Positions 1,106 to 63,048 of a stretch of DNA of 64,000 nucleotides are shown piece after piece. Position 1 is the stretch's first letter; each line of letters begins with the position of its first letter. Made by a program: the position numbers and the translations under genes. The notes under the pieces were generated by a model. The model worked only from the letters and a program-made list of their open reading frames with translations. It did not search any database and was not told the origin of the DNA. The DNA is from an uncultured Aquitalea sp. (GTDB lineage: Bacteria > Pseudomonadota > Gammaproteobacteria > Burkholderiales > Chromobacteriaceae): contig NZ_CAMFLA010000006.1 in assembly GCF_945957525.1 (NCBI RefSeq), positions 62,001 through 126,000 on the forward strand. Direction: 5' to 3'.

Positions 1106-1214
1106 CAATTCAGCGACGCAACAAGGCGCCGGAATAGCAAGACAGCGTCACGATAAGGCGGAGGCATTACAGCCAAGTGACTCGCACATGAAGCTTGTTT
1201 GTCGCCGCTAGACG

Positions 1215-1242
1215 TTTGCCGAAGACCCGCCTGCGCTACAAT
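1215..1242 (+). promoter_or_regulatory. Probable gntR promoter
   Basis: TTTGCC (1215-1220) and TACAAT (1237-1242) are separated by 16 bases and lie 30 bases before the gntR start. The -35 element falls inside a copy of the dispersed GTTTGCCGAAG motif (1214-1224), so promoter and motif overlap. Confidence 0.45.
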
Positions 1243-1271
1243 CGGGACTTGTTTCGCCATCCGGATCAGAC

Positions 1272-2291
1272 ATGCCCAGAAAACCCCGCGTCCGCGCCGG
1301 CAACGGCGTCACCCTGCATGATGTCGGCGACGCCGTCGGCGTCAGCGCCATCACCGTGTCGCGCGTGCTGCGCACCCCGGACAAGGTGTCGGAAGCCTTG
1401 CGGGAAAAGGTACTGGCGGCGGTGGACCGACTGGGTTACGTGCCCAACCGGGCAGCGCGCCACCTGGCCTCGGCCCGCTCCAACACCGTGCTGGTGCTGA
1501 TCCCCTCTCTGAGCAATACCGTATTCATCGACACCCTGGCCGGCATCGAAGAAGTGCTGCAGCCGGCGGGCTACCAGATGCTGATCGGCAACACCCATTA
1601 CGATGCCGATCAGGAGCTGCGCCTGTTGCGCGCCTATCTGGAGCACAGCCCGGACGGGCTGCTTCTCACCGGGCTGACCCAGCATGCCGACTTCCGCGCG
1701 CTGGTGGAGCGCCATCGCCTGCCAGTGGTGCACATGATGGACCTGGCCGACGATGGCCGCGCCTGTGTCGGCTTTTCACAGGAAGACGCCGGCCGCGCCA
1801 TTGCCGGGCATCTGCTCTCTCGCGGCAAGCGCCGCATCGCCTTCTTCGGGGCGCAGCTGGACGAACGCGTGATGAAACGGCTGGACGGTTACCGGCAGAC
1901 GCTGGCCGCCGCTGGCCTGGCTGCGCCGGAGCTGGAAATCCTCGACCCTCGCCCCTCCACCATGCAGATGGGCGCGGACATGCTGGACAGCCTGCTGGCA
2001 GCCCACCCGGACTGCGACGCGGTGTTCTGCTGTAACGACGACCTGGCCATCGGCGTACTGGCCCGTTGCCAGCAACGCGACATCGCCGTCCCCGCACAAC
2101 TGGCCGTGGCGGGCTTCAACGACCTCTCCCCGGCCGCCTGGACCAGCCCGCCATTGACCACAATTGCCACACCGCGACGCGAGATTGGCCGTATTGCAGC
2201 GCAGCAATTGCTGGCGCGACTGGATGGCAAACCCCACGGCCCATCTCGCATCGATCTGGGTTTTGCGCTGCAACATCGTCAAAGCGCCTGA
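1272..2291 (+). CDS. gntR: LacI-family transcriptional regulator, gluconate repressor type
   Basis: A 339-residue LacI-family repressor, the usual family length. The N-terminal helix-turn-helix is at residues 14-38 (VTLHDVGDAVGVSAITVSRVL), followed by the hinge (YVPNRAARHLAS) and a periplasmic-binding-protein-like sensor domain up to the C-terminus. It stands immediately before a gluconokinase gene and a transporter gene, and two perfect GTTAGCGCTAAC palindromes separate it from the kinase. Together these indicate that it represses gluconate uptake and phosphorylation and is released by gluconate or a close sugar acid. Its own promoter (1215-1242) carries no such operator, so it is probably not autoregulated through that motif. 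The effector is inferred from context. Confidence 0.88.
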   Translation: MPRKPRVRAGNGVTLHDVGDAVGVSAITVSRVLRTPDKVSEALREKVLAAVDRLGYVPNRAARHLASARSNTVLVLIPSLSNTVFIDTLAGIEEVLQPAGYQMLIGNTHYDADQELRLLRAYLEHSPDGLLLTGLTQHADFRALVERHRLPVVHMMDLADDGRACVGFSQEDAGRAIAGHLLSRGKRRIAFFGAQLDERVMKRLDGYRQTLAAAGLAAPELEILDPRPSTMQMGADMLDSLLAAHPDCDAVFCCNDDLAIGVLARCQQRDIAVPAQLAVAGFNDLSPAAWTSPPLTTIATPRREIGRIAAQQLLARLDGKPHGPSRIDLGFALQHRQSA

Positions 2292-2349
2292 TTCCGTCCC
2301 TTTCCTGCTGACTGCGGCCCGGCTCGCGTCGTCATTGCATTCTCAAAAT

Positions 2350-2363
2350 TGTTAGCGCTAACA
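2350..2363. promoter_or_regulatory. GntR-type operator O1 (perfect palindrome)
   Basis: TGTTAGCGCTAACA is a perfect 14-base palindrome of LacI-family operator form. It lies 76 bases before the gluconokinase ATG and 59 bases after the gntR stop. Together with O2 at 2412-2427 (centres 63 bases apart, about six helical turns) it could allow looping by a tetramer or double occupancy. Confidence 0.8.
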
Positions 2364-2373
2364 TTTGCAGCCA

Positions 2374-2387: not shown

Positions 2388-2411
2388 CGCTCGTCAAACT
2401 GTCACACAACA

Positions 2412-2427: not shown

Positions 2428-2944
2428 GAAAAACAGAAACATCGTCGTCATGGGCGTGGCCGGCTGCGGCAAAAGCAGCGTCGGCCAAGCGCTCGCCGCA
2501 GCGCTCGGCCAGCCTTTCATCGAGGGCGACCGCTTTCACCCGCAGGAAAACATCGCCCTGATGTCGGCCGGCATTCCACTGGACGATCAGCACCGGCAGG
2601 GCTGGCTGGAAACCCTGGCCGGGCAGTTGGCCGAAGGGCTGGCGGACGGCCGCGGCCGCGTACTGGCCTGTTCCGCCCTCAAGCGGCGCTATCGCGACAT
2701 CCTGCGCGCAGCCGACCCGCAGCTGCTGTTCGTGCACCTGACCGGCACGCCGGAGCTGATCGCCCCGCGCATGCGCGAACGCACCGCGCACTTCATGCCG
2801 CAAAGCCTGCTGGACAGCCAGTTCGCCGATCTGGAACCGCCGGGCGAGGACGAAAACGCGCTCGCACTCGATGTGGCGGACACCCCGGAAAACCTGACCC
2901 GCGCCGCGCTGGACCACCTTGCCCGCCAGCCTGCGCAATCCTGA
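2426..2944 (+). CDS. gntK: Gluconokinase
   Basis: Phosphorylates gluconate to 6-phosphogluconate with ATP, feeding the Entner-Doudoroff and pentose phosphate pathways in the cytoplasm. The protein of 172 residues has the usual GntK length, with the Walker A loop GVAGCGKSS at residues 9-17, the substrate segment EGDRFHP and the ACSALKRRYRD segment typical of gluconokinases. The ATG at 2426 is preferred over an in-frame TTG at 2381 because the family begins just before this P-loop. The start codon overlaps operator O2 and lacks a visible Shine-Dalgarno, so leaderless translation or use of the upstream TTG is possible. The MFS gene follows 28 bases later in the same unit. Confidence 0.93.
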   Translation: MKNRNIVVMGVAGCGKSSVGQALAAALGQPFIEGDRFHPQENIALMSAGIPLDDQHRQGWLETLAGQLAEGLADGRGRVLACSALKRRYRDILRAADPQLLFVHLTGTPELIAPRMRERTAHFMPQSLLDSQFADLEPPGEDENALALDVADTPENLTRAALDHLARQPAQS

Positions 2945-2972
2945 GCCAAAGCAAGAACAGAGGAGAATCCCA

Positions 2973-4355: not shown

Positions 4356-6068
4356 TCAGCAATGACCGGCGGCCGGATCGTCCAGCGACACCCCTTGCCC
4401 TTTCGGCAAACCTTGCTCTTCGCTCTGGCGCAGCCGGCTGGGTTGCAACTGTCCGGCCGCCTCCAGCGCCGGGTAAGCCGCCGCGCAAAGATGCGAGTGT
4501 ATGCGCTTGAGATCGCGCAGGATGTCCAGATGCAGCGAGCTGGTTTCAATGCTTTCCAGCCTCCCTTCGCGCAGGCGTTGCAAATGTTGCTCGGCAGCGC
4601 GCATTTCCAGCTCCCGGACCCGGGTTTTCTCATCCAGCAACTGCCGCGCCGATTTCACATCGCCGGACAGAAACACGCTGAACGACAGCTTGAGGTTGTC
4701 GATGATCAGCCGGTGAAAGGCTTCCAGCTCCTGCGCGCCCTCGCGCGAGAACTGCAGCTGGCGCTTGATCTTCTTGGCCGCCAGCTCCATCAGGTTCTTG
4801 TCGATGATGTCGCCGATGTGTTCCAGGTTGATCGCCAGCGCCATGATCTCCATCGCCCGCCGGCCTTCGGCTTCGTCCAGGCTGTCGCGCGTCAGTCGCA
4901 CCACGTAAAGCTTGATGGCTTCGTGCAGGCTGTCCACCGCGTTGTCGCGCTGCGCCACTTCGGCCACCAGCTTGCGGTCATTAGTGAGTATGGCCTGCAT
5001 GGATTCGCGCATCATGGTTTCCACGATGTCGCCCATGTGCAGGGTTTCACGTGCGGCGCAGGCCAGCGCCACGCTGGGCGTATTCACTACGCTGGCGTCG
5101 AGGTACAGCGGCACGGCCGGGTCTTCGCTGCTGCGTTTTTCCGGCAACCAACGGGTCAACAAACGGCTCACCCAGGGCAGCGGCAGGATGAACAGCAGCG
5201 CCACCGCCGCATTGAACAGCGTGTGGAAATCCGCCGCCAGCCTCGCCGGGTCGGCATCCCACTGCGCCAAGGCCTGACTCAGCGGCGACAGCAAGGGCAA
5301 GGCCAGTGCGCAGCCCACCACGCGGGTAAGCAGATTGCCTGCCGGCAGACGGCGATGCGCCGGGTTGTCGCTGGACAGCCCTTCAATGAAGGGGTTGAGC
5401 GCGCTGCCAAGATTGGCCCCTAGCACCAGCGCACAAGCCGCCAGCGGCGTGATGAAGCCGGACACGGCCAAGGACATTGTCAGCAGCACGGTTGCCACGC
5501 TGGAATGGGCCAGCCAGGTAATCAGCGCGCCGATCAGCAGGGTAACCAAGGGGTCGCCGGTCAGCGCGCCCAGCAGGGTGCGCACCACTGGCGCGTTTTC
5601 CGCCGGTGCCAGGCTGGTAAGCAACAGGTGCAGCGACAGCAGCATCAGGCCAAGGCCGATGGCGACGCGCCCCAGATCGCGCCCGCGCGACTGCCGGCTG
5701 CGCTTGAAGGCCACCACGCCCACCACCAGCAGCAAGGGTGAAATGGCGGAGGAATCGAATGACAGCAGCTGCACAATCAAGGTGGTGCCGACATTTGCGC
5801 CCAGCATCACCGCCAGCGCGGGAGTGAGATCCACCAACCCGGAGGCGGAAAAAGACGACAACATCAGGGCGGTGGCAGTGCTGCTTTGCAATAGCGCGGT
5901 GACGCCGAGGCCAGCGAGAAAAGCATGCGCGCGGGTACGCAACACCGCGCTCATGGCGCGCCGCAGACCAGCGCCAAAGGCGCGCACGATGCCGCTGTGA
6001 ACCATGTGCAAGCCCCACAGCAGCAAGGCGACGCCGCCCATCAGATCCAGCAGGATGGTGGTAGCCAT
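4356..6068 (-). CDS. Na+/phosphate cotransporter family protein with PhoU-like tail
   Basis: A 570-residue inner-membrane protein of the Na/Pi cotransporter (NptA/YjbB-like) family. Residues 1 to about 330 carry the paired hydrophobic repeats with the signature QSSTATALML and a second HSSVATVLL copy, which form the inverted-repeat transport core. From about residue 350 the chain becomes helical and charged (GDIVETMMRESMQAI, NLEHIGDIIDKNLMELA), the PhoU-like regulatory domain. The start at 6068 has AGGGGAGA upstream; a longer frame to 6239 adds no recognisable sequence. The gene lies between the sugar-acid unit and the C-P lyase region, which fits a phosphate theme, but direction of transport (import or export) is not decided by sequence. 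Confidence 0.88.
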   Translation of the reverse strand: MATTILLDLMGGVALLLWGLHMVHSGIVRAFGAGLRRAMSAVLRTRAHAFLAGLGVTALLQSSTATALMLSSFSASGLVDLTPALAVMLGANVGTTLIVQLLSFDSSAISPLLLVVGVVAFKRSRQSRGRDLGRVAIGLGLMLLSLHLLLTSLAPAENAPVVRTLLGALTGDPLVTLLIGALITWLAHSSVATVLLTMSLAVSGFITPLAACALVLGANLGSALNPFIEGLSSDNPAHRRLPAGNLLTRVVGCALALPLLSPLSQALAQWDADPARLAADFHTLFNAAVALLFILPLPWVSRLLTRWLPEKRSSEDPAVPLYLDASVVNTPSVALACAARETLHMGDIVETMMRESMQAILTNDRKLVAEVAQRDNAVDSLHEAIKLYVVRLTRDSLDEAEGRRAMEIMALAINLEHIGDIIDKNLMELAAKKIKRQLQFSREGAQELEAFHRLIIDNLKLSFSVFLSGDVKSARQLLDEKTRVRELEMRAAEQHLQRLREGRLESIETSSLHLDILRDLKRIHSHLCAAAYPALEAAGQLQPSRLRQSEEQGLPKGQGVSLDDPAAGHC

Positions 6069-6362: not shown

Positions 6363-6941
6363 TTACCAAACGTTGGCCTCCGCCGGCAGACAACCTTCGG
6401 CCAACAGGGTAATCAGCGCATCGCCGGCCTCTGAAAGCGGACCATCGTTGCGCAGCACCAGACAGCCCGGCGGCGGCGCATAGGCCTGCGCCTGGAGCAG
6501 CCGGCGCCGGATTGCCTCGGCATCCTCCCGGCCGCGCCGCGCCAGTCGGGTCGCCAGCACCTCGGGGCTGGCGGTGATCCATAAGGGGCGCAGCTGCGGA
6601 AACAAGGCCACTGCTTGCGGCAACACCGCGCGGGAACCGTTGGCCACCACGTCCAGCCCCCGCTCCAGCCACAAGCCCACCTCCGCGCCCAAACCATAGG
6701 CCAGCCCATTGCGACGCCAGCTCAAGACAAAGCAACCGGCCTGTTCGCGCCGGGCAAAATCCGCCTCGCTCAGCGCAATGTGATTTTCGCCGCCGGCATC
6801 CGCCGGCCGGGTGATGTAACGGTGGGCGAATACCGGCCCGGCCTGATGCGACATGCGCTCTCTCGCATATGCCAAGAGGCTGTCCTTGCCAGCGCCGGAG
6901 GGGCCGATCACCAGCCACAGCCTTCCGCTGCGCTCAGTCAT
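6363..6941 (-). CDS. phnN: Ribose 1,5-bisphosphate phosphokinase PhnN
   Basis: Converts ribose 1,5-bisphosphate to PRPP with ATP, the salvage step that returns the sugar part of the C-P lyase product to nucleotide metabolism. The protein of 192 residues is of usual length, with Walker A GPSGAGKDS at residues 12-20 and the guanylate-kinase-like AHRYITRPADAGGENH segment. The ATG at 6941 was chosen because it places the P-loop at the normal distance from the N-terminus. It overlaps the stop of the upstream 2H phosphoesterase gene by 8 bases, indicating translational coupling. The third gene of a phnF - 2H phosphoesterase - phnN unit divergent from phnGHIJKLM. A dispersed 11-mer copy lies near its end (6395-6405). 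Confidence 0.93.
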   Translation of the reverse strand: MTERSGRLWLVIGPSGAGKDSLLAYARERMSHQAGPVFAHRYITRPADAGGENHIALSEADFARREQAGCFVLSWRRNGLAYGLGAEVGLWLERGLDVVANGSRAVLPQAVALFPQLRPLWITASPEVLATRLARRGREDAEAIRRRLLQAQAYAPPPGCLVLRNDGPLSEAGDALITLLAEGCLPAEANVW

Positions 6942-7623
6942 GGCGTTGCACCTCGCCACTGAAAGCGCAGGACGCCAGATAACGGAAAGGTTGGCCGGGG
7001 GCATCTTCGGCAAACACCGCCAAGCGGTCCACCGTCAGCCGGGCGTGGGAGGCAAAGCACGCGCGCGCAGCGTCCAGCAAAGCCTGCGCCGCAGGGCGAT
7101 CCGCCGCCATGCCAGCCGCCAGCGTGTAGTGAAAGCGATAGTGCTCGAACACATGCGGATAGCCCCAGCGACGGGCTAGCGCCTGCCGCCGCGCGTCCAG
7201 CCCCGGCCAGGCGCGCGCGCTGTCGGCCGGAGCGGCCAAGGGCGACAGCCCCACCACGCAGGCGGCAGCCAGTTCGCCCAACTCGGGCGGCGGCGTCAGC
7301 GCTCTCAGCGCGGGGAAGCCTGCCAGCCAGGCGGGCTGCAAATCCACGGCAAAAGGCGCAAAACCCGACGCCAGCGCACTGACCGCCGTCAGCAACCGGC
7401 TTTCATCCACGCCGTCGCGCAGGGCGAACGGCGCTTTCAGGGTGGCATGCCAGCCATAACGGGCGGCAACGGCGGTGATCTCGGAGAATGCCTCGGCCGA
7501 CCAGCCGGGAACCAGCGGTTGCACCACCTGTGCGCCGCTGTGGGCATCCTGACCCAGCCAGGCACTGCCGGCGCGCCAGAAGGCGCTGTCGGGCGGCGGC
7601 GCATGGTAAATGGCGTAGCGCAT
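6934..7623 (-). CDS. DUF1045-type 2H phosphoesterase of phosphonate metabolism
   Basis: A 229-residue protein of the DUF1045 family found in phosphonate gene clusters. Two H-x-T motifs, HATL near residue 59 and HYTL near residue 165, are the paired catalytic signature of the 2H phosphoesterase superfamily, which opens cyclic phosphates. It lies between phnF (4 bases away) and phnN (8-base overlap). The C-P lyase pathway yields 5-phosphoribosyl 1,2-cyclic phosphate, which PhnP normally hydrolyses, and no phnP is present here. I therefore infer that this protein may open that cyclic phosphate. The family assignment is firm; the reaction is a hypothesis. Confidence 0.85.
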   Translation of the reverse strand: MRYAIYHAPPPDSAFWRAGSAWLGQDAHSGAQVVQPLVPGWSAEAFSEITAVAARYGWHATLKAPFALRDGVDESRLLTAVSALASGFAPFAVDLQPAWLAGFPALRALTPPPELGELAAACVVGLSPLAAPADSARAWPGLDARRQALARRWGYPHVFEHYRFHYTLAAGMAADRPAAQALLDAARACFASHARLTVDRLAVFAEDAPGQPFRYLASCAFSGEVQRHD

Positions 7624-7627: not shown

Positions 7628-8347
7628 TCAATCCTCCATCACCAGTTGCACTAGATCACCGTTGAAATGGGTCACACCGTATTGCACCGGTACGCCGGCT
7701 GGGTCGACATTCAGCGATTTGACGTGCAGCACCGGCCGGTTCTTGGGAATGCCCAGATAATCCACCACCTCGGCGTCCGGCAGTCTGGCGGTAACGCGGG
7801 TAAAGCGCCGGGTGTAATCCTGCACCCCGAAATGCTGCAGCGTGCGCGTGACGGAGCGATGGCGGTAATACACCTCTGGCAGGCCGGGAAAGCGGGCAGC
7901 GGGAAAAAACATGGTGGCATAGTCCACTACCCGCAACTCTACCCGGCTAAGGGTGCGGATGCGGTGCACCTCCTCGCCCGGCTGCAGCGCCAGCAAGCCA
8001 GCCAGCTCGGCAGAGACGGGCAACAGGTCTACCGAGAGAATGTCCACATCGGAACTGAGATTCTGCCGCGCCATGTTCTGCGAGAAGCGCGTGCGCTTGC
8101 TGATGGCGTAATCGATGGCGTTGTCCTGCACGAAAGTGCCGCGCCCCTGCTCCACCCGCAACAAGCCGCGCTCCACCAGCGTGGACACCGCGCGGCGGAT
8201 GGTGTGGCGGTTGACGCCAAAGCGTTCGGCCAACTGCAGTTCGGTGGGCAGCCTCTCCCCTGCCTGCAAGCGCCCGCCGGCGATCTCTTCCGCCAGCGTG
8301 TTTTCAATCTGCCGCCACACGGCCACGCCTGAGCCTCTTTCTATCAT
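7628..8347 (-). CDS. phnF: Phosphonate utilisation regulator PhnF (GntR/HutC family)
   Basis: A 239-residue regulator with an N-terminal winged helix (LPTELQLAERFGVNRHTIRRAVSTLVERGLL, about residues 33-63) and a C-terminal UTRA ligand domain, the HutC branch of the GntR family. The start at 8347 has AAGGG seven bases upstream; in-frame GTG and ATG codons at 8404 and 8395 lack a good ribosome site. It is divergent from phnG, and the 177-base gap holds a tandem GTNTANAC site (8473-8488), the operator form known for HutC proteins. The same tandem site precedes the distant substrate-binding gene at 1072. Likely a repressor; its ligand is not evident from sequence. Confidence 0.9.
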   Translation of the reverse strand: MIERGSGVAVWRQIENTLAEEIAGGRLQAGERLPTELQLAERFGVNRHTIRRAVSTLVERGLLRVEQGRGTFVQDNAIDYAISKRTRFSQNMARQNLSSDVDILSVDLLPVSAELAGLLALQPGEEVHRIRTLSRVELRVVDYATMFFPAARFPGLPEVYYRHRSVTRTLQHFGVQDYTRRFTRVTARLPDAEVVDYLGIPKNRPVLHVKSLNVDPAGVPVQYGVTHFNGDLVQLVMED

Positions 8348-8965: not shown

Positions 8966-9540
8966 TGCTGCATACCGGATTCAAGCACCCCGTCGACGAC
9001 GCCCAGCGCAATTTCCGCGCGCTGCTGGAGGCGCTGTCCCGCCCCTTGCAGCCGCGCGCGCTGCCGACGCTGCCGCCGGCCTTGCCCGGCCTTGCCGCCG
9101 GCACGGTCGCCCTGCTCTACACGCTGGCGGATCAGGACGTGGCCGTGTGGCTGCCGGACCTGCCGGCCGACACGCTGGCCACGCTGCGCTTTCACACCGG
9201 CATGACGCTGGCCGCCTCGCCGCTGGCGGCGGATTTCATCGTGATTCCCACCGGCCGCGCCCTGCCGGCGCTGGACGCCTTGCCCGCGGGCGAAGCCGAG
9301 TACCCGGACCGCGCCGCCACGCTGATCATCGAAACCGGCGCCTTTCACCAGTGCGATGTCGAAGCCTCCGGCCCCGGCATCGCCGCGCCGCTGCGCTTTG
9401 GCGCACAAGGTTTGCCGAAGGACTTCTGGCGGCAGTGGCAGGTCAATCACGCCCGCTACCCGCTGGGCGTGGACGCGCTGCTGGTGGCGGACGGCGTGAT
9501 TGCCGGCCTGCCGCGCAGCGTCTCGGTCAAGGAGGGATGA
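8962..9540 (+). CDS. phnH: C-P lyase subunit PhnH
   Basis: A 192-residue subunit of the C-P lyase core complex; its exact role is structural or unknown in the family. Length and the opening segment GFKHPVDDAQRNFRALLEALSRP match PhnH. Two adjacent ATG codons (8962 and 8965) are possible starts; the first overlaps the phnG stop. A copy of the dispersed GTTTGCCGAAG motif lies at 9410-9420, where it encodes Gly-Leu-Pro-Lys. phnI begins one base after the stop. Confidence 0.93.
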   Translation: MMLHTGFKHPVDDAQRNFRALLEALSRPLQPRALPTLPPALPGLAAGTVALLYTLADQDVAVWLPDLPADTLATLRFHTGMTLAASPLAADFIVIPTGRALPALDALPAGEAEYPDRAATLIIETGAFHQCDVEASGPGIAAPLRFGAQGLPKDFWRQWQVNHARYPLGVDALLVADGVIAGLPRSVSVKEG

Positions 9541-10633: not shown

Positions 10634-11501
10634 ACCCTTCTCCCCGCCTTCGGCCAACCTTGACGACCGCTGGCGCTACAACTTCGGTTTTCTCGACGAA
10701 AACACCAAACGCATGCTGCGCCGCGCCCTGCTCAAGGCTGTAGCCGTGCCCGGCTATCAAGTGCCCTTCGGCAGCCGGGAAATGCCGCTGCCTTACGGCT
10801 GGGGCACCGGTGGCATCCAGCTGACAGCGGCAGTGATCGGCCACGAAGACGTGCTCAAAGTGATAGACCAGGGCGCTGACGACACCACCAACGCCGTCAA
10901 CATCCGCCGCTTTTTCGCCCGCGTCGCCGGCGTGGCCACCACCACCGTCACCCGCGACGCCACGCTGATACAGACCCGTCACCGCATCCCGGAAACACCG
11001 TTGGCCGAAGGCCAGATCATGGTGTTCCAGGTACCGGAACCCGAGCCTTTGCGCACGCTGGAAGCCAGCGAGGTGGAAACCCGCAAACTGCACGCCCATC
11101 AGGAATACGGACTCATGCATGTCAAGCTGTACGAGGACATCGCCCGATACGGCCACATCGCCACCAGCTACGACTATCCGGTAATGGTGAACCGCCGCTA
11201 TCTAGCCTCCCCTTCTCCCATTCCCAAATTCGACAATCCCAAGCTGCACCGCAGCCCGGCGCTGATGCTGTTCGGCGCTGGCAGGGAGAAGCGCCTCTAC
11301 GCCATCCCGCCGTATACCGAGGTGGAAAGCCTCGCCTTCGAGGACCATCCCTTCGAAGCGCAGCACTGGTCGCAGGCCTGCGCACTGTGCGGCAGCTCCG
11401 ACAGCTATCTGGACGAAATCATCGCCGACGACGCCGGCGTGCGGCAGTTTGTCTGCTCGGACACGGACCACTGCCGGCAACAGCGGGAGGCCGCGCAATG
11501 A
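10626..11501 (+). CDS. phnJ: C-P lyase radical-SAM subunit PhnJ
   Basis: The catalytic subunit that cleaves the carbon-phosphorus bond of 5-phosphoribosyl 1-phosphonate by a radical mechanism, using a [4Fe-4S] cluster and S-adenosylmethionine. The C-terminal cysteines follow the special PhnJ spacing: CALC, then 21 residues, Cys, five residues, Cys (CSDTDHC). Length is 291 residues. The ATG at 10626 has AGGA eight bases upstream; another ATG at 10617 would add three residues. The stop overlaps the phnK ATG. All cluster and catalytic cysteines appear intact, so the lyase should be active. Confidence 0.96.
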   Translation: MTEPFSPPSANLDDRWRYNFGFLDENTKRMLRRALLKAVAVPGYQVPFGSREMPLPYGWGTGGIQLTAAVIGHEDVLKVIDQGADDTTNAVNIRRFFARVAGVATTTVTRDATLIQTRHRIPETPLAEGQIMVFQVPEPEPLRTLEASEVETRKLHAHQEYGLMHVKLYEDIARYGHIATSYDYPVMVNRRYLASPSPIPKFDNPKLHRSPALMLFGAGREKRLYAIPPYTEVESLAFEDHPFEAQHWSQACALCGSSDSYLDEIIADDAGVRQFVCSDTDHCRQQREAAQ

Positions 11502-17337: not shown

Positions 17338-17345
17338 GGCGGCGG

Positions 17346-22478: not shown

Positions 22479-23225
22479 TCAGCCTGTGTAAAAACTTTGC
22501 ACCAGCGACCCCATCAGCAAGGTCCAGCCGTCCACCAGCACAAACAGCATCAGTTTGAACGGCAAGGAAATGGTGACGGGCGACACCATCATCATGCCCA
22601 TCGCCATCAGGATACTGGCCACCACCAGGTCAATGATCATGAAGGGAATGAAGACCATGAAACCAATCTGGAAAGCCGTTTTCAGCTCGCTGATGATATA
22701 GGCAGGGATGAGCGTCTTCATGCTGACGTCGGCCTTGGTGGCCGGCTTCTCCGAGCGCGAAATCTCGATGAAAAAGGCCAGATCCTTCTCGCGCGTCTGC
22801 GTCAGCATGAAAGCCTTCATCGGCTTACTGCCCTCATCCATCGCCTGCGATATGGAAATCTTGTCGTCGGAAAACGGCACCCAGGCCTTGCTGTACACCT
22901 GATCGAAGGTGGGCCCCATCACAAACAGGGTGAGAAACAGCGACAGACCGACAATCACCTGGTTGGGCGGTGCCTGCGCAACGCCCAGCGCCTGTCGCAG
23001 CAGCGACAGCACGATCACGATGCGGGTGAACGAGGTCATCATCAGCAACATGGCCGGGATGAAGCCGAGCGCCGTCATGAATAGCAACATCTGCAGCGAC
23101 AGCGAGTAATTCTGGCCGCCGCCCGCGCCCGGCGTGCTGGTCATCAAGGGCAAGCCTGCCGCTTCGGCCAACGTTGGCCCCAGCAACAGGATGAAAGGCA
23201 GTATCTGTCTGCGGAAAAATGTCAT
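22479..23225 (-). CDS. fliP: Flagellar biosynthesis protein FliP
   Basis: Core export-gate protein of 248 residues with a cleavable signal peptide (LPFILLLGPTLAEA) and four further membrane segments. The conserved MTSFTRIVIVLSLLRQALG, PPNQVIVGLSLFLTLFVMGP and IPAYIISELKTAFQIGFMVFIPF stretches are intact. Together with FliQ and FliR it forms the helical pore for rod, hook and filament proteins. It ends three bases before the acetyltransferase start. A copy of the dispersed 11-mer sits at 23162-23172 in the signal-peptide coding region. Confidence 0.96.
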   Translation of the reverse strand: MTFFRRQILPFILLLGPTLAEAAGLPLMTSTPGAGGGQNYSLSLQMLLFMTALGFIPAMLLMMTSFTRIVIVLSLLRQALGVAQAPPNQVIVGLSLFLTLFVMGPTFDQVYSKAWVPFSDDKISISQAMDEGSKPMKAFMLTQTREKDLAFFIEISRSEKPATKADVSMKTLIPAYIISELKTAFQIGFMVFIPFMIIDLVVASILMAMGMMMVSPVTISLPFKLMLFVLVDGWTLLMGSLVQSFYTG

Positions 23226-53544: not shown

Positions 53545-53682
53545 GATGACTCTCGTTATTGTGCGGGCCGCCAAGCGGCATGCTTGCGGCAATGCCGTCT
53601 ATATTGCCTGATCGCGGCACTTTTTTTAAATCACAGTCTGTCATAAGCATCGCGACATCCGGCAACGTTTGCCGAAGATATG

Positions 53683-53747: not shown

Positions 53748-55283
53748 TCAGATCAGATTCTGCTCGGCCACATTCAGATTAAGGTCGATCATCTGCGAAC
53801 TGGTGGGCTCTTCCTTGCCGCCCTTGCTTTCCTGACGGGCATTCTCGATAGCGTCCAGATACGCGTCATCAATATCGCCGGTGATGTATTCGCCGTTGAA
53901 ACAAGAGGTTTCGAAGTGATTCAGCTCCGGATTCACCGAATGCACCGCTTCTTTCAGCGAGTCCAAATCCTGATAGATCACCGCATCTGCGCCGATTTCA
54001 CGCGCGATATCCTCCTCGGTGCGACCGGTTGCCAACAATTCAGCGCGGGTCGGCATGTCGATGCCGTACACATTGGGGAAACGCACGGCCGGCGCGGCCG
54101 ACGCAAAGTACACCTTGCGTGCGCCGGCATCGCGCGCCATCTGCACGATTTCCTTGGAGGTGGTGCCGCGCACTATGGAGTCGTCCACCAGCAGTACGTT
54201 GCGATCCTTGAATTCGCAAGCCACCGGATTGAGTTTCTGCCGCACGGACTTCTTGCGCACGGCCTGGCCCGGCATGATGAAGGTGCGACCGATATAACGG
54301 TTCTTGATGAAACCTTCGCGGTACGGCAGGCCAAGGTGATTGGCCAGTTGCAGCGCGCTGGGGCGGCTGGTGTCAGGAATCGGCATCACGACGTCAATGT
54401 CGATCGCCGGCAGCACGCGGCGCACCTTGTCCGCCAGCTTTTCACCCATCACGATACGGGCCTGATAAACCGATGCGCCGTCAATGACGGAATCAGGACG
54501 GGCAAAGTACACGTATTCAAACAGGCAAGGCGCGTGACGGGCGTTGGCCGAACAGCTGCGTGCATGAAACTGGCCGTCGAAGGTGACAAACACGCCCTCG
54601 CCCGGCTGCACGTCGCGCAGGATGGAGAAGCCGGAGCAATCGAGCGCCACCGACTCGGAAGCAAACATATATTCGGTCTTGCCGCTGGCTTCGCTGGTGC
54701 CGATCACCAAAGGACGAATACCGTTGGGGTCGCGGAAAGCCACCAGACCGTAGCCGGCGATGAGAGCCACCACGGCATAGGCGCCGCGCACGCGGCGATG
54801 AACGGCCTCGACTGCGCCGAATACCGCGTCCTCGCTCAACTCGAAGCCTTTTACCCGAGTGGCGATTTCATGGGCGAACACGTTCAGCAGCACTTCGGAG
54901 TCCGAGTTGGTGTTGATGTGGCGCAGATCATGACGGAACATGTCGGCCTTCAACTCTTCGGTGTTGGTGAGGTTGCCGTTGTGGGCCAGTACGATGCCGA
55001 ACGGCGAGTTCACATAGAAAGGCTGTGCCTCGGCCAGGCTGGAGGCCGAACCGGCGGTGGGGTAACGCACATGCGCAATGCCGGCGTTGCCCATCAGCGA
55101 GCGCATGTTTCGGGTGCGGAAAACGTCGCGCACCATGCCGCTGCCCTTGTGCATATGAAAGGTCTTGCCACTGGCGGTAACGATACCGGCGGCATCCTGA
55201 CCGCGATGCTGCAGTACCTGCAGGCCGTCATACAGCAACTGGTTGACGGGGGTCTGCCCTACCACGCCTAGAATTCCACACAT
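53748..55283 (-). CDS. purF: Amidophosphoribosyltransferase PurF
   Basis: First committed enzyme of purine synthesis, making phosphoribosylamine from PRPP and glutamine; 511 residues. Cys2 (MCGILGVVG), which becomes the N-terminal nucleophile after removal of Met, begins the glutamine amidotransferase domain ([11 protein letters not shown]). The PRPP-binding loop is [18 protein letters not shown] near residue 370. The upstream cvpA gene is separated by 84 bases containing a strong terminator. Confidence 0.97.
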
Positions 55284-56800: not shown

Positions 56801-58066
56801 TCAATGTTTGCGCTGTCGGGCTTCCATGACCTCGGCCACGGTGTGAAACGACCCGAAAACAGTGATTCTATCATTCTCGCCCGCCGCGGATAAGGCGGAC
56901 CGCCATGCGTCGGCCATGGTTTTGTGCGCATGCACCTGCTGCAGCCCCATCGCCTTGAGACGTTCGGCGATGACTTCGCCGCTCTGGCCACGCGGCATGT
57001 CCAGTCCGCCCACATGCCATTGGTCGAACTCATCACGCGCCAGTTCCACCACGGCTTCAAGATCCTTGTCCGCCAGCATGGAAAACACGGCAATGCGGTT
57101 TTCGGCAAACGGCAGCTGGCGCAGGCTGGCCGTCATGGCCTTGACCGCGTGCGGGTTGTGTCCCACGTCCAGCACCACTACCGGACGGCCGGGCAGCACC
57201 TGGAAACGGCCTGGCCAATCCACCTCCACCAAACCCTGTTTCACCGCGCCGATGCCTACCGGCAAACGCTCGCGCAGGCACTCGAGCGCTGCCAGCGCGG
57301 CAGCGGCGTTGCCCAACTGGTAGCCGCCACGCAGGGCCGGCATGGGCAAAGCGTGCCGACGCGAATCGCCCATGCTGAACGACCACTGGTTATCCATGCG
57401 GCTGTAGTTGTAGTCGCGTCCCACCAGCTTCAATTCCGCACCGATGGCGGTTGCATGCGCCAGCAGGCGGGCCGGCGGATTGGGGTCGGCGCAGATGGCG
57501 GGTTTGCCGGCGCGGTAGATGCCGGCTTTCTCGAAACCAATATCTTCTCGGTTGTCGCCCAGAATGGCGGCGTGGTCGATATCCACGCTCACCACCACGG
57601 CCACGTCCGGATCAAACAGGTTGACGGCATCCAGGCGGCCGCCCAAGCCCACTTCCATGATGGCCACGTCTACCCGCTCTTCCATGAAAGCGTGCATGGC
57701 GCCGAGCGTGCCAAACTCAAAATAGGTCAGCGAGACATCGCCGCGCGCGGCGTCGATGGCGGCAAAGCTGCGCATAATGCGTTCGTCGCCCACCGGGGCG
57801 AGGTTGATCGCCACCCGCTCGTTGTAGCGCAGGATGTGCGGCGAGGTGTAGGTGCCCACCTTGAACCCAGCGCGCTGCAGCATGGTGGACAGCATGGCGC
57901 AGACCGAGCCCTTGCCGTTGGTGCCGGCGACGGTGATGACCGGGAAGCTTGGCCGCAGGGCCATGGCGTCGCGCACTTTGCCGACGCGCTCCAGGCCCAT
58001 GTCTATAGTGGTGAAGTGCAGGTTTTCCAGCCAGTGCAGCCAGTCGTCCAGTGTGGTGCGTTGCAT
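56801..58066 (-). CDS. folC: Folylpolyglutamate synthase / dihydrofolate synthase
   Basis: Adds glutamate to dihydropteroate and to tetrahydrofolate; 421 residues. The ATP loop is VITVAGTNGKGSVCAML near residue 44, followed by YTSPHILRYNERVAIN and a MurD-like central domain with VEVDWPGRFQVLPGRPVVVLDVGHNPHAVKAM. The ATG at 58066 fits the family N-terminus (TLDDWLHWLENLH) although its ribosome site is weak. It is two bases from the ygfX-like gene, so the two are coupled. Confidence 0.94.
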   Translation of the reverse strand: MQRTTLDDWLHWLENLHFTTIDMGLERVGKVRDAMALRPSFPVITVAGTNGKGSVCAMLSTMLQRAGFKVGTYTSPHILRYNERVAINLAPVGDERIMRSFAAIDAARGDVSLTYFEFGTLGAMHAFMEERVDVAIMEVGLGGRLDAVNLFDPDVAVVVSVDIDHAAILGDNREDIGFEKAGIYRAGKPAICADPNPPARLLAHATAIGAELKLVGRDYNYSRMDNQWSFSMGDSRRHALPMPALRGGYQLGNAAAALAALECLRERLPVGIGAVKQGLVEVDWPGRFQVLPGRPVVVLDVGHNPHAVKAMTASLRQLPFAENRIAVFSMLADKDLEAVVELARDEFDQWHVGGLDMPRGQSGEVIAERLKAMGLQQVHAHKTMADAWRSALSAAGENDRITVFGSFHTVAEVMEARQRKH

Positions 58067-58068: not shown

Positions 58069-58521
58069 TCAGGAGTCTGTTAGGGGCGCATCGCGATGCA
58101 GATCGCGCGCGCTGTGGAACCAGGAAAGATAAACGCGCAGTTTGCGCAGGCTGTCGGCATTGGCGCTGTCCGGCAGCAAGACCCAACTGCGACGCCGACC
58201 ATCGGCAACCGCGTTGACCACCGTCAGCCAGGGCATGACAAAGCTGTCTGGCGACAGCGTCAGCTCCAGCCGCCGGCCGCCCTCTTCGGCAAACATTCTG
58301 CCGTCCAGCTCCACCTGCAGGCTGCCCGCCCGGGGTAGCGCGCGCTGGCAGCGCAGCGCCCCCAACATGGCCGGCAAGCAGGCCCACCAATGGACGACTG
58401 GCAAATACAGCAGGCAAAGCAAGACAGCAGCGACGGCGCAGCCCCAAGTCAGCGCGGGGCCCAGCCGGGACGGGCGCAAGACCACCCGGAAAGGCGGCAG
58501 GCGACGACCGGATACGCTCAT
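58069..58521 (-). CDS. YgfX/CptA-like membrane protein
   Basis: A 150-residue protein with two adjacent membrane helices (about 26-60) and a soluble C-terminal part (LQVELDGRMFAEEGGRRLELTLSPDSFVMPWLTVV...WVLLPDSANADSLRKLRVYLSWF) resembling the YgfX family (DUF1434). In E. coli YgfX is encoded with SdhE (YgfY) and has been described as a toxin acting on FtsZ and MreB. Here no sdhE gene is adjacent; a small acidic gene lies 19 bases upstream instead. The family assignment is by pattern only. Confidence 0.7.
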   Translation of the reverse strand: MSVSGRRLPPFRVVLRPSRLGPALTWGCAVAAVLLCLLYLPVVHWWACLPAMLGALRCQRALPRAGSLQVELDGRMFAEEGGRRLELTLSPDSFVMPWLTVVNAVADGRRRSWVLLPDSANADSLRKLRVYLSWFHSARDLHRDAPLTDS

Positions 58522-59007: not shown

Positions 59008-60921
59008 ATGGCTCTTATTTCCGTCGAGAAGGCTTGTCTCGCCTTCGGTCACCACGCCCTGCTGGACAATGTGGATTTTTCGCTGGACACAGGCGAAGTG
59101 GTCGGCCTGATCGGCCGCAACGGCGCGGGCAAGTCCTCGCTGCTGAAAAGCATTGCCGGCACGGTGGCGCTGGATGACGGTCGCGTCAACACCAAGGGCG
59201 ACGTCAAAGTGGCCTATGTGCCGCAAGAGCCCGAGTTTGCCGAAGGGCAAACCGTCTTCGACGCTGTGGCCGAGGGCCTGGGCGAACTCAAGGCCCTGCT
59301 GAGCGACTACCACCGCCTTACCCATCAACTGACCCAGGCTTCGGCCAACGCCGACGACTTGCTGGCCCGCATGGAAACCATCCAGCACCAGCTGGAGGCC
59401 CAGGGCGGCTGGCAGTTTGATGCCTTGATCACCACCACCCTGTCCCATCTGGGGCTGAATCCGGACACCCTCATCGCCGACCTGTCCGGCGGCTGGAAAA
59501 AACGCGTGGCGCTGGCTCGCGCGCTGGCCGCCAAGCCGGACGTGCTGCTGCTGGACGAACCCACCAACCATCTGGACGTATCCGCCATCGAATGGCTGGA
59601 AGGCCTGCTCAAGAGCTTCAGCGGCAGCGTGCTGCTGATCACCCACGACCGGCGCTTTCTCGACAACACCGCCAACCGCATCGTGGAGCTGGATCGCGGC
59701 CTGCTGCGCAGCTATCCGGGCAGTTTTTCCGCCTATCAGGTGCGCAAGGCGGAAGAAATCGCCATTGAAGAAGAGCAAAACCGCATTTTCGATAAATTCC
59801 ACGCGCAGGAAGAAGTGTGGATTCGCAAAGGCATCGAGGCGCGCCGCACCCGCAACGAAGGCCGCGTGCGCCGGCTGGAGGCCATCCGCCGCGAACGCTC
59901 CGCCCGCCGCGAACGCGTGGGCCAGGTGAACTTCCAGCTGGATGCGGGCGAACGCTCCGGCAAACTGGTGGCCGAGCTGGAACACGTCAGCAAGGGCTAT
60001 GACGGCAAGACGCTGATTCGCGACTTCACCACCCGCATCCTGCGCGGCGACAAGATCGGCCTGATCGGCCCCAACGGCGCCGGCAAGACCACCCTGCTCA
60101 AGCTCATTCTCGGTCAGCTGGAGCCCGACAGCGGCGTGGTAAAGCAAGGCACCAAGCTGGAAATCGCCTACTTCGACCAGTTCCGCGAACAACTGGACGA
60201 AGAAACCAGCGTGGCCGACATCATCAGCCAGGGCAACGACTTTGTCGAAATCGGCGGCGTGCGTAAACACGTGATGAGCTATCTGGAAGACTTCTTGTTT
60301 TCGCCGCAGCGCGCCCGCAGCCCGGTGCGCTCGCTGTCCGGCGGCGAACGCAACCGCCTGCTGCTGGCCCGGCTGTTCACCCGCCCCGCCAACGTGCTGG
60401 TGCTGGACGAACCTACCAACGACCTGGACATCGACACCCTGGAACTTCTGGAAGAGGTGATTGCCAACTATTCGGGTACGGTTTTCCTGGTCAGCCACGA
60501 CCGGGCCTTCCTCGACAACGTCGTTACCCAGGTCATCGCTTTTGAAGGCGAAGGCAGGCTGGAAGAATACCCGGGCGGCTATCAGGACTGGCTGGACACC
60601 AAGGCGCGCATGGCCGCCATGAAGCCTGCCGACGCGCCCAAAACCGTCGCCAGCGCGCCGGTTGCCGCGCGCCAGGACAAGCCCAAACCGGCCCGCAACA
60701 AGCTTTCCTATAATGAAACGCGGGAATTGGCCGCGCTGCCGGACGATATCGCGGCGCTGGAAACCGAGCAGGCCGAACTCAACCAGAAACTGCTGGACCC
60801 GGACTGCTACCGCAACACCCCCAAAGAAGCCGTACAGTGGCAACAACGCATCGAGGCCATCGATGAATTGCTGCTGGAAAAACTGGCGCGCTGGGAAGAA
60901 CTGGAGTCACGACTGAAATGA
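59008..60921 (+). CDS. uup: ABC-F family ATPase Uup
   Basis: A 637-residue cytoplasmic protein with two ABC ATPase domains and no membrane part, acting on ribosomes in this family. First domain: GRNGAGKSSLLKS, LSGGWKKRVALARAL, LLLDEPTNHLD. Second: GPNGAGKTTLLKL, LSGGERNRLLLARL, VLDEPTNDLD. Between them is a basic linker (RKGIEARRTRNEGRVRRLEAIRRERSARRERV). The C-terminal coiled coil (YNETRELAALPDDIAALETEQAELNQKLL) identifies Uup rather than EttA or YheS. Two dispersed 11-mers lie close together at 59235-59245 and 59339-59349 in opposite orientation. Confidence 0.93.
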   Translation: MALISVEKACLAFGHHALLDNVDFSLDTGEVVGLIGRNGAGKSSLLKSIAGTVALDDGRVNTKGDVKVAYVPQEPEFAEGQTVFDAVAEGLGELKALLSDYHRLTHQLTQASANADDLLARMETIQHQLEAQGGWQFDALITTTLSHLGLNPDTLIADLSGGWKKRVALARALAAKPDVLLLDEPTNHLDVSAIEWLEGLLKSFSGSVLLITHDRRFLDNTANRIVELDRGLLRSYPGSFSAYQVRKAEEIAIEEEQNRIFDKFHAQEEVWIRKGIEARRTRNEGRVRRLEAIRRERSARRERVGQVNFQLDAGERSGKLVAELEHVSKGYDGKTLIRDFTTRILRGDKIGLIGPNGAGKTTLLKLILGQLEPDSGVVKQGTKLEIAYFDQFREQLDEETSVADIISQGNDFVEIGGVRKHVMSYLEDFLFSPQRARSPVRSLSGGERNRLLLARLFTRPANVLVLDEPTNDLDIDTLELLEEVIANYSGTVFLVSHDRAFLDNVVTQVIAFEGEGRLEEYPGGYQDWLDTKARMAAMKPADAPKTVASAPVAARQDKPKPARNKLSYNETRELAALPDDIAALETEQAELNQKLLDPDCYRNTPKEAVQWQQRIEAIDELLLEKLARWEELESRLK

Positions 60922-61469
60922 GACCGACACGGCCCGAAACTGCCCTGCTGAACCGCCGCGCCGCGCTGCGCGGTGCGCTGATGGCCTCCGCCGCCTTGCT
61001 GCTGGCAGCCTGCGGCACCACCAAAAAGCCGACGCAGACCGCCAAACCCCGCCCTTCTCAGGACAAAACCCTGTCCGCGCTGAAGGCTGACGGCGCGGGC
61101 CGTGAAATCCTCATGTACACCTTGGGTCTGCTGGACCTCGACTACAAATTCGGCGGCGGCAACCCGGAGGCCGGTCTCGATTGCAGCGGCATGGTCAGTT
61201 ATATCTACCAGAACGCCGTTGGCGTGAAGTTGCCCCACAACGCTGCGCAGATCGCCGGTCTGGCCCGTCCCGTCAGCAACAGTCAGATGCAGGTGGGGGA
61301 CTTGGTGTTCTTCAACACCATGAACCGCTCCTTCTCCCACATGGGCATCTACATCGGCGACAGCAAGTTCGTCCATGCGCCGCGCACCAACAGCACCATA
61401 CGCGTGGACCGGCTGGACAACAGCTATTTCTCCGCCCGCTACGAGGGCGCGCGCACCCTGTTCTCCTGA
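60918..61469 (+). CDS. NlpC/P60 (C40) peptidase lipoprotein
   Basis: A 183-residue cell-wall peptidase. The signal region ends in the lipobox LLAAC (Cys33) and contains a twin-arginine-like NRRAALRG, so it may be a Tat-exported lipoprotein. The catalytic Cys is in GLDCSGMVSYIYQ, the His in FSHMGIYIGD and the third polar residue in KFVHAPRTN, as in C40 endopeptidases that cut peptide stems. The ATG overlaps the uup stop by four bases, so it is translationally coupled to a ribosome factor, an odd pairing. Confidence 0.9.
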   Translation: MRPTRPETALLNRRAALRGALMASAALLLAACGTTKKPTQTAKPRPSQDKTLSALKADGAGREILMYTLGLLDLDYKFGGGNPEAGLDCSGMVSYIYQNAVGVKLPHNAAQIAGLARPVSNSQMQVGDLVFFNTMNRSFSHMGIYIGDSKFVHAPRTNSTIRVDRLDNSYFSARYEGARTLFS

Positions 61470-61474
61470 GCGCC

Positions 61475-62038
61475 ATGACCAGAAGCGACACCGCAGGCCG
61501 GCTGGTTCGCTATTGGCGACAACGTCCGCACCTGCATCGCGACGGTATCTCCTTGCCGGAGTCCCTGCTCTTCGGCCAACTCAAACAGGCGCTGGACAGC
61601 GAGGCCATGGAAGTGGCCGCGCTGTCCTTGCTCAGCCGCGACAGCACCTTGCACCTCGTCCTGAAGCAGCCCCTGGCCGCCCGGCTTACCCTGCACCTGG
61701 ATTTCCTGCCGCCCGACTGGGCTCAACGCCAGCTGCGTCTTGCCTACCATGTAGACGGCGAAGCGGCCTCTCCATCCCTGCTGCGCCGGGCCATTGGCGG
61801 CTTGGTGTTGACCGCGCTCAGCGGCGGCATGGGCGACCGCTTGCTGCGCCAGCTGGCAGCACCGCTGGACTGGCTCAAGCTGGAAGACGGCATCGCCACC
61901 ATAGGGCTGGACGCCCTGCCCGCAGTCAAAGAGTGGCTGGACTACCCGCTGTTTGGCCGCGCGCTTGGCGAGCGCTGGCAAGTACGCACCTTGGAAACCT
62001 CTCCCGGCTGGCTGCGCCTGCGCTTCGCAAAAACCTGA
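61475..62038 (+). CDS. Protein of unknown function
   Basis: A 187-residue protein, probably cytoplasmic or peripheral: no signal peptide is seen, and only a weakly hydrophobic stretch (AIGGLVLTALSGGMGDRLLRQL) near residue 110. The opening RLVRYWRQRPHLHRDGISLPESLLFGQLKQAL is basic. I do not recognise the family. It begins five bases after the NlpC/P60 gene and so belongs to the uup unit. A copy of the dispersed 11-mer lies at 61570-61580. Confidence 0.75.
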   Translation: MTRSDTAGRLVRYWRQRPHLHRDGISLPESLLFGQLKQALDSEAMEVAALSLLSRDSTLHLVLKQPLAARLTLHLDFLPPDWAQRQLRLAYHVDGEAASPSLLRRAIGGLVLTALSGGMGDRLLRQLAAPLDWLKLEDGIATIGLDALPAVKEWLDYPLFGRALGERWQVRTLETSPGWLRLRFAKT

Positions 62039-62138
62039 CTCGCCGCTGTCGCTTCCCCACGCCACCCAATCTGAATAAAATGTCCACGCCATTTGCATAG
62101 CAAAGCGGCACGTGAAATGACTTTTTGATTGGATAATC

Positions 62139-62918
62139 ATGCTGCAAATTCTTGAAAACGCCTATCTCGCCATCCTGCGCTTTGTGGTGCTGGCCGTTGC
62201 CGGCCTGATGCTGGTGGCCGTCGTCTGGTTTGGCATCGACGCCCTCCATCTGATGAAGAGCGAGCCTGCCCCGGTACGAGTGGAACCCAAAGTCACCGCG
62301 CAGGAAATGATCTCCCTCGCCACCAGCCCCGCGCCGGCAGCCGCCTCCACCGCCGACAACGAAGCCGCCCCCCAGGGCAAACCCGGCGCGGACCCGTTGA
62401 CGGCCTACTACCGCCGCGGCGCGGACGCCATCATCCGCTTTGGCGAAAAAGCCTCCCATGGCCAGATTTCCGCCGACCGCGAACCGCTGGTCTCGGTGCT
62501 GAAAGAGCAAAGCGCCGATCTCAAGGACCCACACTACGAAGCCGCATACGTCAAAGGCCTGGCCGAGACGCTGGAACAAACGCTGAGTTCGCCCGCCGTC
62601 CTCAAGACCGCCTCCCCCGAGGAGCCGTTCCGGGTGGTGGACAAAGTGCTGGATGGCTACAAAGAACGCTTCAACGGCCAGATTGAAACCGTGGAGGCCA
62701 AGAATGCCGAAGCGCAGCAGAAATATCTGGGTGAGAAAGCAGAAAGCCAGATGAGCCTCTATTACGCTGCCGCCGCGTTTGGCGCGTTTCTGCTGATTGT
62801 CTTCCTCTCCATCACCATCAAGATCGAGCGCAATCTTCGCCTGCTGGAGAACCTGCCGCGCCCCGAGAAGGCTGCGCCGCAAGCCAAGACAAGCCGCCCG
62901 GCCGAGGCGCAGGCCTGA
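62139..62918 (+). CDS. Membrane protein of unknown function, two transmembrane helices
   Basis: A 259-residue protein with one membrane helix near the N-terminus (LAILRFVVLAVAGLMLVAVVWF, about 10-31) and one near the C-terminus (YYAAAAFGAFLLIVFLSITI, about 207-226). The 170 residues between are helical and charged, probably periplasmic, with a possible coiled coil (VEAKNAEAQQKYLGEKAESQM). The C-terminal tail is Pro/Lys/Ala rich. I do not recognise the family. It is separated from its neighbours by about 100 and 130 bases, so it is probably transcribed alone. Confidence 0.75.
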   Translation: MLQILENAYLAILRFVVLAVAGLMLVAVVWFGIDALHLMKSEPAPVRVEPKVTAQEMISLATSPAPAAASTADNEAAPQGKPGADPLTAYYRRGADAIIRFGEKASHGQISADREPLVSVLKEQSADLKDPHYEAAYVKGLAETLEQTLSSPAVLKTASPEEPFRVVDKVLDGYKERFNGQIETVEAKNAEAQQKYLGEKAESQMSLYYAAAAFGAFLLIVFLSITIKIERNLRLLENLPRPEKAAPQAKTSRPAEAQA

Positions 62919-63048
62919 CCCTCAGACGCGCAGGACGGCAAGGCGCCGCAGCCAAGGTTGGCCGAAGGCCGACTACCGCGCAGGCTTTGCCCTGACACCG
63001 CCTTGCCGCAGACTCAATACATCGTCATCCCAACCAGGAATGCCAATC

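Follow-up and report, generated by a model that had tools for sequence, protein, structure and literature searches.

A dispersed GTTKGCCGAAG repeat as a probable DUS-type DNA uptake sequence in Chromobacteriaceae

Why should a single 11-base word, GTTKGCCGAAG, recur on both strands throughout 64 kb of bacterial DNA? The question arises from the window G000:C6:62001-126000, the whole stretch of 64,000 nucleotides analyzed here, which comes from a Chromobacteriaceae genome that groups with Aquitalea (handles beginning with G, C, L and g denote genomes, contigs, sampled loci and genus groups; G000 belongs to g1). The spelling in G000 is 5′-(AG)GTTKGCCGAA(G)-3′, one of a related set in the family. 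We consider it highly likely that the word is an uptake sequence of the DNA uptake sequence (DUS) type and that it belongs to a Chromobacteriaceae group of spellings standing beside the eight Neisseriaceae dialects.

An exact count gave 29 copies of GTTKGCCGAAG in the window, 13 on the forward and 16 on the reverse strand, with G at position 4 in 18 copies and T in 11; the first copy starts at 1214 and the last ends at 62967. An earlier note on this DNA had described the same repeat with 27 copies (18 G, 9 T; 13 and 14 by strand), so that the repeat stands and its count is revised. The commonest 11-mer of the window is GTTGGCCGAAG, and GTTTGCCGAAG is tied for second place. The 10-mer GTTKGCCGAA occurs 36 times, the seven occurrences beyond the 11-mers having A or C at position 11. 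The degenerate motif has 13 one-mismatch neighbors in the window, 7 of which differ at position 11.

Sets of 60 simulated 64-kb sequences contained a mean of 0.27 copies under a Markov model of order 2 (maximum 2), 0.77 under order 5 (maximum 3) and 1.65 under order 6 (maximum 4), compared to the 29 observed. Across the 4.05 Mb of G000 we counted 1,518 copies, 745 and 773 by strand or about one per 2.7 kb, compared to 8 copies of the reversed pattern. In a 424-kb sample of the genome, made up of the window and 18 other stretches of 20 kb each, GTTKGCCGAAG was the top-scoring 11-mer against an order-3 model. Such exceptional over-representation of a 10- to 12-mer is a mark of DUS dialects. The earlier note had named background abundance elsewhere in the genome and a Markov model of order 5 to 6 as possible ways of explaining the repeat away; neither does so.

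We next consider where the copies lie with respect to genes, using our own simple gene calls, by which 88% of the 424-kb sample is coding. The sample holds 177 copies, 137 within genes and 40 outside, so that coding and non-coding DNA and both strands all carry the motif, as is typical of DUS dialects; in the window, 4 of the 29 copies fall outside called genes, in agreement with the four intergenic copies noted before. All six reading frames are occupied, as the earlier note had implied from copies read in different frames, but not equally: 79 of the 137 coding copies lie in the sense orientation as (G)TTK GCC GAA and encode Leu/Phe-Ala-Glu. When synonymous codons were shuffled within each gene 200 times, the coding copies fell to a mean of 6.1 (maximum 14) from the observed 137. 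Leu-Ala-Glu tripeptides were spelled TTGGCCGAA in 84 of 176 cases, compared to the 4.9% predicted from codon use. The assertion that neither composition nor codon use could reach the observed count is thus upheld.

Information content around the motif in G000 is at background level outside about −2 to +13, and conservation stops at about +13. There is therefore no conserved sequence beyond the core of the kind that a repetitive extragenic palindromic (REP) element or a miniature inverted-repeat transposable element (MITE) would have, and the larger mobile repeat that the earlier note had allowed for did not appear. Four of the window's 29 sites could be aligned with orthologous DNA of motif-less Aquitalea, and at all four these relatives share the stretch without the motif (67-77% identity). 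Two of the sites have no gaps, a third is gap-free in four of five relatives and the fourth is gapped in four of five.

The copies are spaced more evenly than random. With close inverted pairs merged, the coefficient of variation of spacing was 0.68 compared to 0.94 in simulation, and none of 2000 simulations was as low; the number of copies per 20 kb over the 18 stretches had a variance/mean ratio of 0.38. The even density that the earlier note had asked about thus holds in the sampled stretches. When 148 copies from these stretches were oriented by GC skew in a hand count, 79 ran with and 69 against the leading-strand sense, far from the strong bias of FtsK-orienting polar sequences (KOPS) or Chi, and stretches L002-L004 (contig 1, beyond about 180 kb) have copies on both strands. 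Together with the genome-wide strand balance, this sustains the earlier argument against KOPS- or Chi-like polarity.

The five closest neighbor pairs in the 424-kb sample are all inverted, lie outside called genes and have 4 to 7 bases between the two copies. One inverted arrangement is found at 12 places in G000, compared to none for the reversed control. Twelve hairpins, drawn from 10 of those 12 places and from 2 with the alternative arrangement, have computed folding energies of −17 to −32 kcal/mol; T-rich stretches follow some of them. In Neisseriaceae, inverted DUS pairs act as terminators, a role that the geometry and computed folding of the G000 pairs would suit.

The 29 copies of the 11-mer in the window (+, forward strand; −, reverse strand) are:
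1214..1224, +, GTTTGCCGAAG, intergenic
2626..2636, +, GTTGGCCGAAG, in gene 2381-2944 (+)
6395..6405, −, GTTGGCCGAAG, in gene 6363-6941 (−)
7005..7015, −, GTTTGCCGAAG, in gene 6934-7623 (−)
9410..9420, +, GTTTGCCGAAG, in gene 8965-9540 (+)
10648..10658, −, GTTGGCCGAAG, antisense in gene 10617-11501 (+)
11000..11010, +, GTTGGCCGAAG, in gene 10617-11501 (+)
15029..15039, +, GTTGGCCGAAG, antisense in gene 14603-15328 (−)
17208..17218, +, GTTGGCCGAAG, antisense in gene 16183-17349 (−)
17750..17760, +, GTTGGCCGAAG, antisense in gene 17346-18500 (−)
18014..18024, −, GTTGGCCGAAG, in gene 17346-18500 (−)
23162..23172, −, GTTGGCCGAAG, in gene 22479-23225 (−)
27657..27667, −, GTTTGCCGAAG, antisense in gene 26941-27942 (+)
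28019..28029, +, GTTGGCCGAAG, in gene 27947-29551 (+)
28946..28956, −, GTTTGCCGAAG, antisense in gene 27947-29551 (+)
31110..31120, −, GTTGGCCGAAG, in gene called at 30703-31152 (−)
33018..33028, −, GTTGGCCGAAG, in gene 32539-33366 (−)
35745..35755, −, GTTTGCCGAAG, in fliF-like gene 34332-36083 (−)
38593..38603, −, GTTGGCCGAAG, intergenic
39903..39913, −, GTTTGCCGAAG, in patatin-like gene 39196-41403 (−)
40336..40346, +, GTTGGCCGAAG, antisense in patatin-like gene 39196-41403 (−)
42023..42033, +, GTTTGCCGAAG, in gene 41526-43040 (+)
49178..49188, −, GTTGGCCGAAG, in acyl-CoA dehydrogenase gene 49032-51485 (−)
53667..53677, +, GTTTGCCGAAG, intergenic
58284..58294, −, GTTTGCCGAAG, in gene called at 58069-58368 (−)
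59235..59245, +, GTTTGCCGAAG, in ATP-binding cassette (ABC) ATPase gene 59008-60921 (+)
59339..59349, −, GTTGGCCGAAG, antisense in ABC-ATPase gene 59008-60921 (+)
61570..61580, −, GTTGGCCGAAG, antisense in gene called at 61475-62038 (+)
62957..62967, +, GTTGGCCGAAG, intergenic

The seven further copies of the 10-mer, with the base that follows, are:
4401..4411, −, GTTTGCCGAA, then A
8224..8234, −, GTTGGCCGAA, then C
44098..44108, −, GTTTGCCGAA, then C
46386..46396, −, GTTGGCCGAA, then A
47397..47407, +, GTTGGCCGAA, then A
54543..54553, +, GTTGGCCGAA, then C, antisense in purF-like gene
57100..57110, −, GTTTGCCGAA, then A

Is the word peculiar to this genome? We counted the spellings GTTGGCCGAA (AA), GTTGGCCGCA (CA) and GTTGGCCGAG (AG) in 61 Chromobacteriaceae genomes and found 23 carriers: 8 of GTTGGCCGAA, 13 of GTTGGCCGCA and 2 of GTTGGCCGAG. 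The AA spelling occurs 1,368 times in G000, 2,168 in G036, 579 in G035, 1,245 in G037 and 1,851 in G044, and 1,104, 893 and 183 times in three g9 genomes; the CA spelling ranges from 1,871 to 2,895 in 13 g10 genomes, and the AG spelling reaches 1,940 and 1,590 in two g4 genomes. As in DUS dialects, spelling follows taxon, with CA in 13/13 genomes of g10, AG in 2/2 of g4 and AA in 2/2 of g5, 1/1 of g6, 1/1 of g8 and 3/3 of g9. The exception is g1, where G000 alone of 10 genomes carries the motif; the other nine have 17 to 33 copies of GTTKGCCGAAG compared to its 1,518. In the remaining 38 of the 61 genomes, none of the three spellings rises far above background; the largest excess among them, a mild one, is in two g7 genomes (92 copies of GTTGGCCGAG and 62 of GTTGGCCGAA in G039; 85 and 45 in G042). 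In 386 genomes sampled from other families of the order, GTTKGCCGAAG, the sole word counted there, stayed at background (41 copies or fewer).

A named-genome count with the pooled word GTTGGCCGMR, covering 29 of 32 family loci (L082-L113), gave 1,018 to 2,824 copies in six Vogesella, Pseudogulbenkiania ferrooxidans 2002, P. subflava and Paludibacterium denitrificans, where the reversed control counted 42 to 113. In five Aquitalea and eight Chromobacterium the copies numbered 86 to 220 (control 57 to 109). There are gaps within genera as well: Pseudogulbenkiania sp. bin3 has 148 copies (control 79), and two other Paludibacterium have 245 and 223 (control 115 and 123). By 20-kb samples, Vogesella uses the CA spelling, and Pseudogulbenkiania ferrooxidans, P. 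subflava and Paludibacterium denitrificans use AA. We take P. ferrooxidans 2002 to be the strain listed by Frye et al., under the name 'Lutiella nitroferrum 2002', among genomes with no obvious DUS. No spelling emerged for Aquitalea G002, G003 and G005, for Chromobacterium, for g3 or for g7 when 40 to 240 kb of each group was scanned for over-represented words, a depth at which rare spellings could escape. A candidate spelling in Chromobacterium G022, GTTTGCCGAGC, was confined to one stretch and looks like a local repeat. A scan with PurF from the window returned Aquitalea first, at 89-90% identity, and G001 and G004 of g1 share their motif positions with the genomes of Aquitalea aquatica and A. 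magnusonii; these neighbors place G000 in Chromobacteriaceae, although a tree of PurF by itself did not fix its position. We also note that G035 (579 copies compared to 2,168 in its sister genome) and G046 (183, from an assembly that is 84% complete, compared to 1,104 and 893) may be losing the motif.

The motif and the Neisseriaceae DUS are alike in being 10- to 12-mers that number from many hundreds into the thousands per genome, on both strands, with genus-specific spellings, A/G preference at −2/−1, hairpin-forming inverted pairs and a ComP orthologue in the genome. Among 224 copies of the fixed 10-mer in G000, position −2 is A in 50% (0.37 bits) and position −1 is G in 39% (0.08 bits, a weak preference). 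The AG flank is stronger than this in five of six other samples, and the sixth, G037, favors G at both positions; a semi-conserved AG or AT at −2/−1 is characteristic of DUS dialects. With the flank included, AGGTTGGCCGAA has 9 of 12 positions in common with AG-simDUS AGGCTGCCTGAA and with AG-mucDUS AGGTCGTCTGAA (sequences from the available part of PMC7371117). When strand and shift were left free, 0.9% of 20,000 shuffled 12-mers equaled 9/12 against at least one of five known dialects; in register the figure was 0.36%. The flank entered this comparison post hoc. The Vogesella spelling differs by A-to-C at +9, the same change that marks AA-king3DUS AAGCAGCCTGCA. At +5 the Chromobacteriaceae motif has G, unlike all the dialect sequences compared.

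As a control of the method, the known DUS GCCGTCTGAA was counted across the family of G344 (41 genomes, those of g53 included) and occurred 1,863 to 4,285 times with balanced strands in eight of nine g53 genomes and 247 times in the ninth. From this word we infer that g53 is Neisseria. Four Neisseria dialect cores showed no enrichment in samples of G000, Vogesella G059, G036, G033 or Aquitalea.

What might read the motif? G000 encodes a ComP orthologue at C9:75150-75599, a pilin of about 150 residues (start codon assumed), which scores 41 bits against the Pfam family PF16732 (ComP_DUS; cut-off 27.3). Its best solved relatives are the Neisseria ComP structures 2m3k, 5hz7 and 2nba, from meningococcus and N. 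subflava, with E-values of 2.8e-10 to 3.9e-10, and a profile built from six such Chromobacteriaceae pilins returned the same top three (2M3K, 5HZ7, 2NBA). The homology covers the globular domain, including the stretch S-T-x-W-P-x-L-P; the C-terminus otherwise aligns poorly between Chromobacteriaceae and Neisseria ComP. Directly upstream of comP lies a gene for a PilX-like minor pilin in G000 and G033 and a PilY1-like gene in G037 and G045. Like comP, comEC is present in G000 as an open frame. In G044 (Paludibacterium denitrificans; L170, L230), we observed two adjacent ComP-like pilin genes. If the word is an uptake sequence, it very probably works through ComP and most likely operates as the published dialects do. 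The ComP minor pilin on the type IV pilus would bind motif-bearing DNA, as in Neisseria; retraction of the pilus would draw the DNA across the outer membrane, ComEC would pass a single strand to the cytoplasm and recombination would swap the resident allele. Alleles with the motif would be taken up more often, and copies would build up where the protein or terminator tolerates them, so that even, strand-neutral spacing would follow, as we propose.

Several observations weigh against a DUS-type, ComP-read sequence. All 51 ComPs read have one conserved C-terminal cysteine pair, with extra cysteines elsewhere in some, G000 included; judged from cysteine positions, they would lack the two disulfides that, according to the available literature, are essential for DUS binding by Neisseria ComP. 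PF16732 is unspecific, with four matches in G000 of which the ComP orthologue is the weakest, and NCBIfam assigns that protein to a general prepilin only. Our ComP profile matches all 61 family genomes. Its top scores, 185 to 237 bits, do belong to carriers, nine of the 23, of which six supplied the profile's seeds; the nine motif-less genomes of the Aquitalea group score 152 to 169 bits, G044 and the 13 g10 carriers lie below these at 93 to 123 bits, and g3 genomes score about 63 to 69. With profile matches in 61/61 genomes and scores that do not track the carriers, the presence of ComP is no predictor of the motif. Three changes are required to account for the carriers on a tree of 50 ComPs, and a single clade of motif-associated ComPs was not rejected (approximately unbiased test, p-AU 0.20). 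The five close inverted pairs are no more numerous than chance predicts (4.7), and the evidence therefore lies in their geometry. The resemblance of the bare 10-mer to known dialects was matched by 7.5% of shuffles. Finally, positions +6 to +8 read CCG in every Chromobacteriaceae spelling found, whereas in Neisseria CTG is held to be invariant and near-essential (PMC3630211, available part). Because the CTG core is absent, we keep the motif out of the published dialect set and place it as a sister group; the best reading is a Chromobacteriaceae group of DUS dialects that departs from the published rule by which the CTG core does not vary.

The weak likeness of the bare 10-mer, the post hoc addition of the AG flank and the patchy distribution, with 38 of 61 genomes (nine of them in the genus group of G000) lacking all three spellings, would suit an uptake sequence that evolved independently of the Neisseria DUS and came to resemble it by chance or by convergence on similar ComP surfaces. 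We consider such an origin unlikely, given that the flank preference falls in the AG-DUS register, where so few shuffles reach 9/12, that the candidate receptor is a ComP orthologue and that the +9 change in Vogesella parallels AA-king3DUS. A lineage that once used the motif for uptake and now carries decaying copies would account for same-genus relatives without it and for the low counts in G035 and G046 compared to their sister genomes. This relic explanation seems very unlikely for G000: perfect copies in the window (29) outnumber one-mismatch neighbors (13), 7 of the latter differ at the loosely held position 11, and both comP and comEC are open frames.

The earlier note had also offered a site for a chromosome-organizing protein, to which segregation or repair functions can be added (KOPS, Chi, SlmA, Noc or matS type). 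The motif is abundant, short, non-palindromic and dispersed, as such a site could be. We regard this as highly improbable, because leading and lagging orientations are near balance (79 and 69 of 148), density is even (variance/mean 0.38), nine same-genus genomes, where such a site should have persisted, are at background, and hairpin-forming inverted pairs would not be expected. Codon usage, composition or a larger mobile repeat, for which the 79 of 137 coding copies in one Leu/Phe-Ala-Glu frame might speak, is already refuted by the shuffle, Markov, flank and alignment results and keeps practically no probability. The other proposal of the earlier note, that a relative of Neisseria has an uptake dialect of its own, is strongly supported by abundance, genus-specific spellings, the AG flank, hairpin pairs, even spacing and the ComP orthologue.

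Two comparisons place this DUS-type sequence among other dispersed words. Like it, the uptake signal sequence (USS) of Pasteurellaceae is a dispersed short tag of self DNA; the USS core, AAGTGCGGT, is unrelated to GTTKGCCGAAG. The proposed USS receptor, ComN/PpdA, differs from ComP in fold arrangement (PMC12616744, available part). In the family of G344, we observed AGTCTGCCGGAA (listed as TTCCGGCAGACT) 24 times in 27.8 kb of G498 (L261, L262; G+C 0.34); the reversed control AAGTCTGCCG counted 551 in G498 and 411 in G502, where GCCGTCTGAA counted 1 and 0. By eye, AGTCTGCCGGAA agrees with AG-simDUS in 10 of 12 bases and has CGG where the dialect has CTG; it is possibly another undescribed DUS dialect. 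Words such as TCTATAGCTAT, present 20 times in 60 kb of G044 (L057-L059), are unrelated to the motif.

The available part of Frye et al. 2013 (PMC3630211) reports no obvious DUS in five genomes of Chromobacteriaceae kind and no ComP in Chromobacterium violaceum by BLAST, puts the origin of the DUS system later than the divergence from that species, and gives CTG as the core common to all of the eight published Neisseriaceae dialects. Its Table S1D gives over-represented 10-mers for Lutiella nitroferrum 2002, among others, and may include the present word, unnamed as a DUS. A 2024 paper, in the part available, keeps the number of dialects at eight and characterizes new candidates by CTG at positions 6-8. 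Within open-licence literature and among the matches listed, we found no such motif reported for Vogesella, Pseudogulbenkiania, Laribacter, Chromobacterium, Aquitalea or Chromobacteriaceae with ComP, and a search on the words themselves gave no uptake paper by title among the matches listed.

We lean toward the view that DUS-ComP uptake spans the Chromobacteriaceae, with at least three CCG-core spellings, that it predates or crossed the split between the families and was lost in most Aquitalea and in Chromobacterium, and that CTG, though believed essential, is the solution of one lineage only. Relatives of Neisseria would then carry their own spellings in a group where earlier work, in its available part, found none (PMC3630211). 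Having spellings and candidate receptors of its own, a second family would offer a natural experiment on how pilin and DNA word change together, the receptor family being the same and the word changed at +5, +7, +9 and +10. It may also provide organisms outside Neisseria for studying the uptake of self DNA, and a means to spot foreign DNA in carrier genomes.

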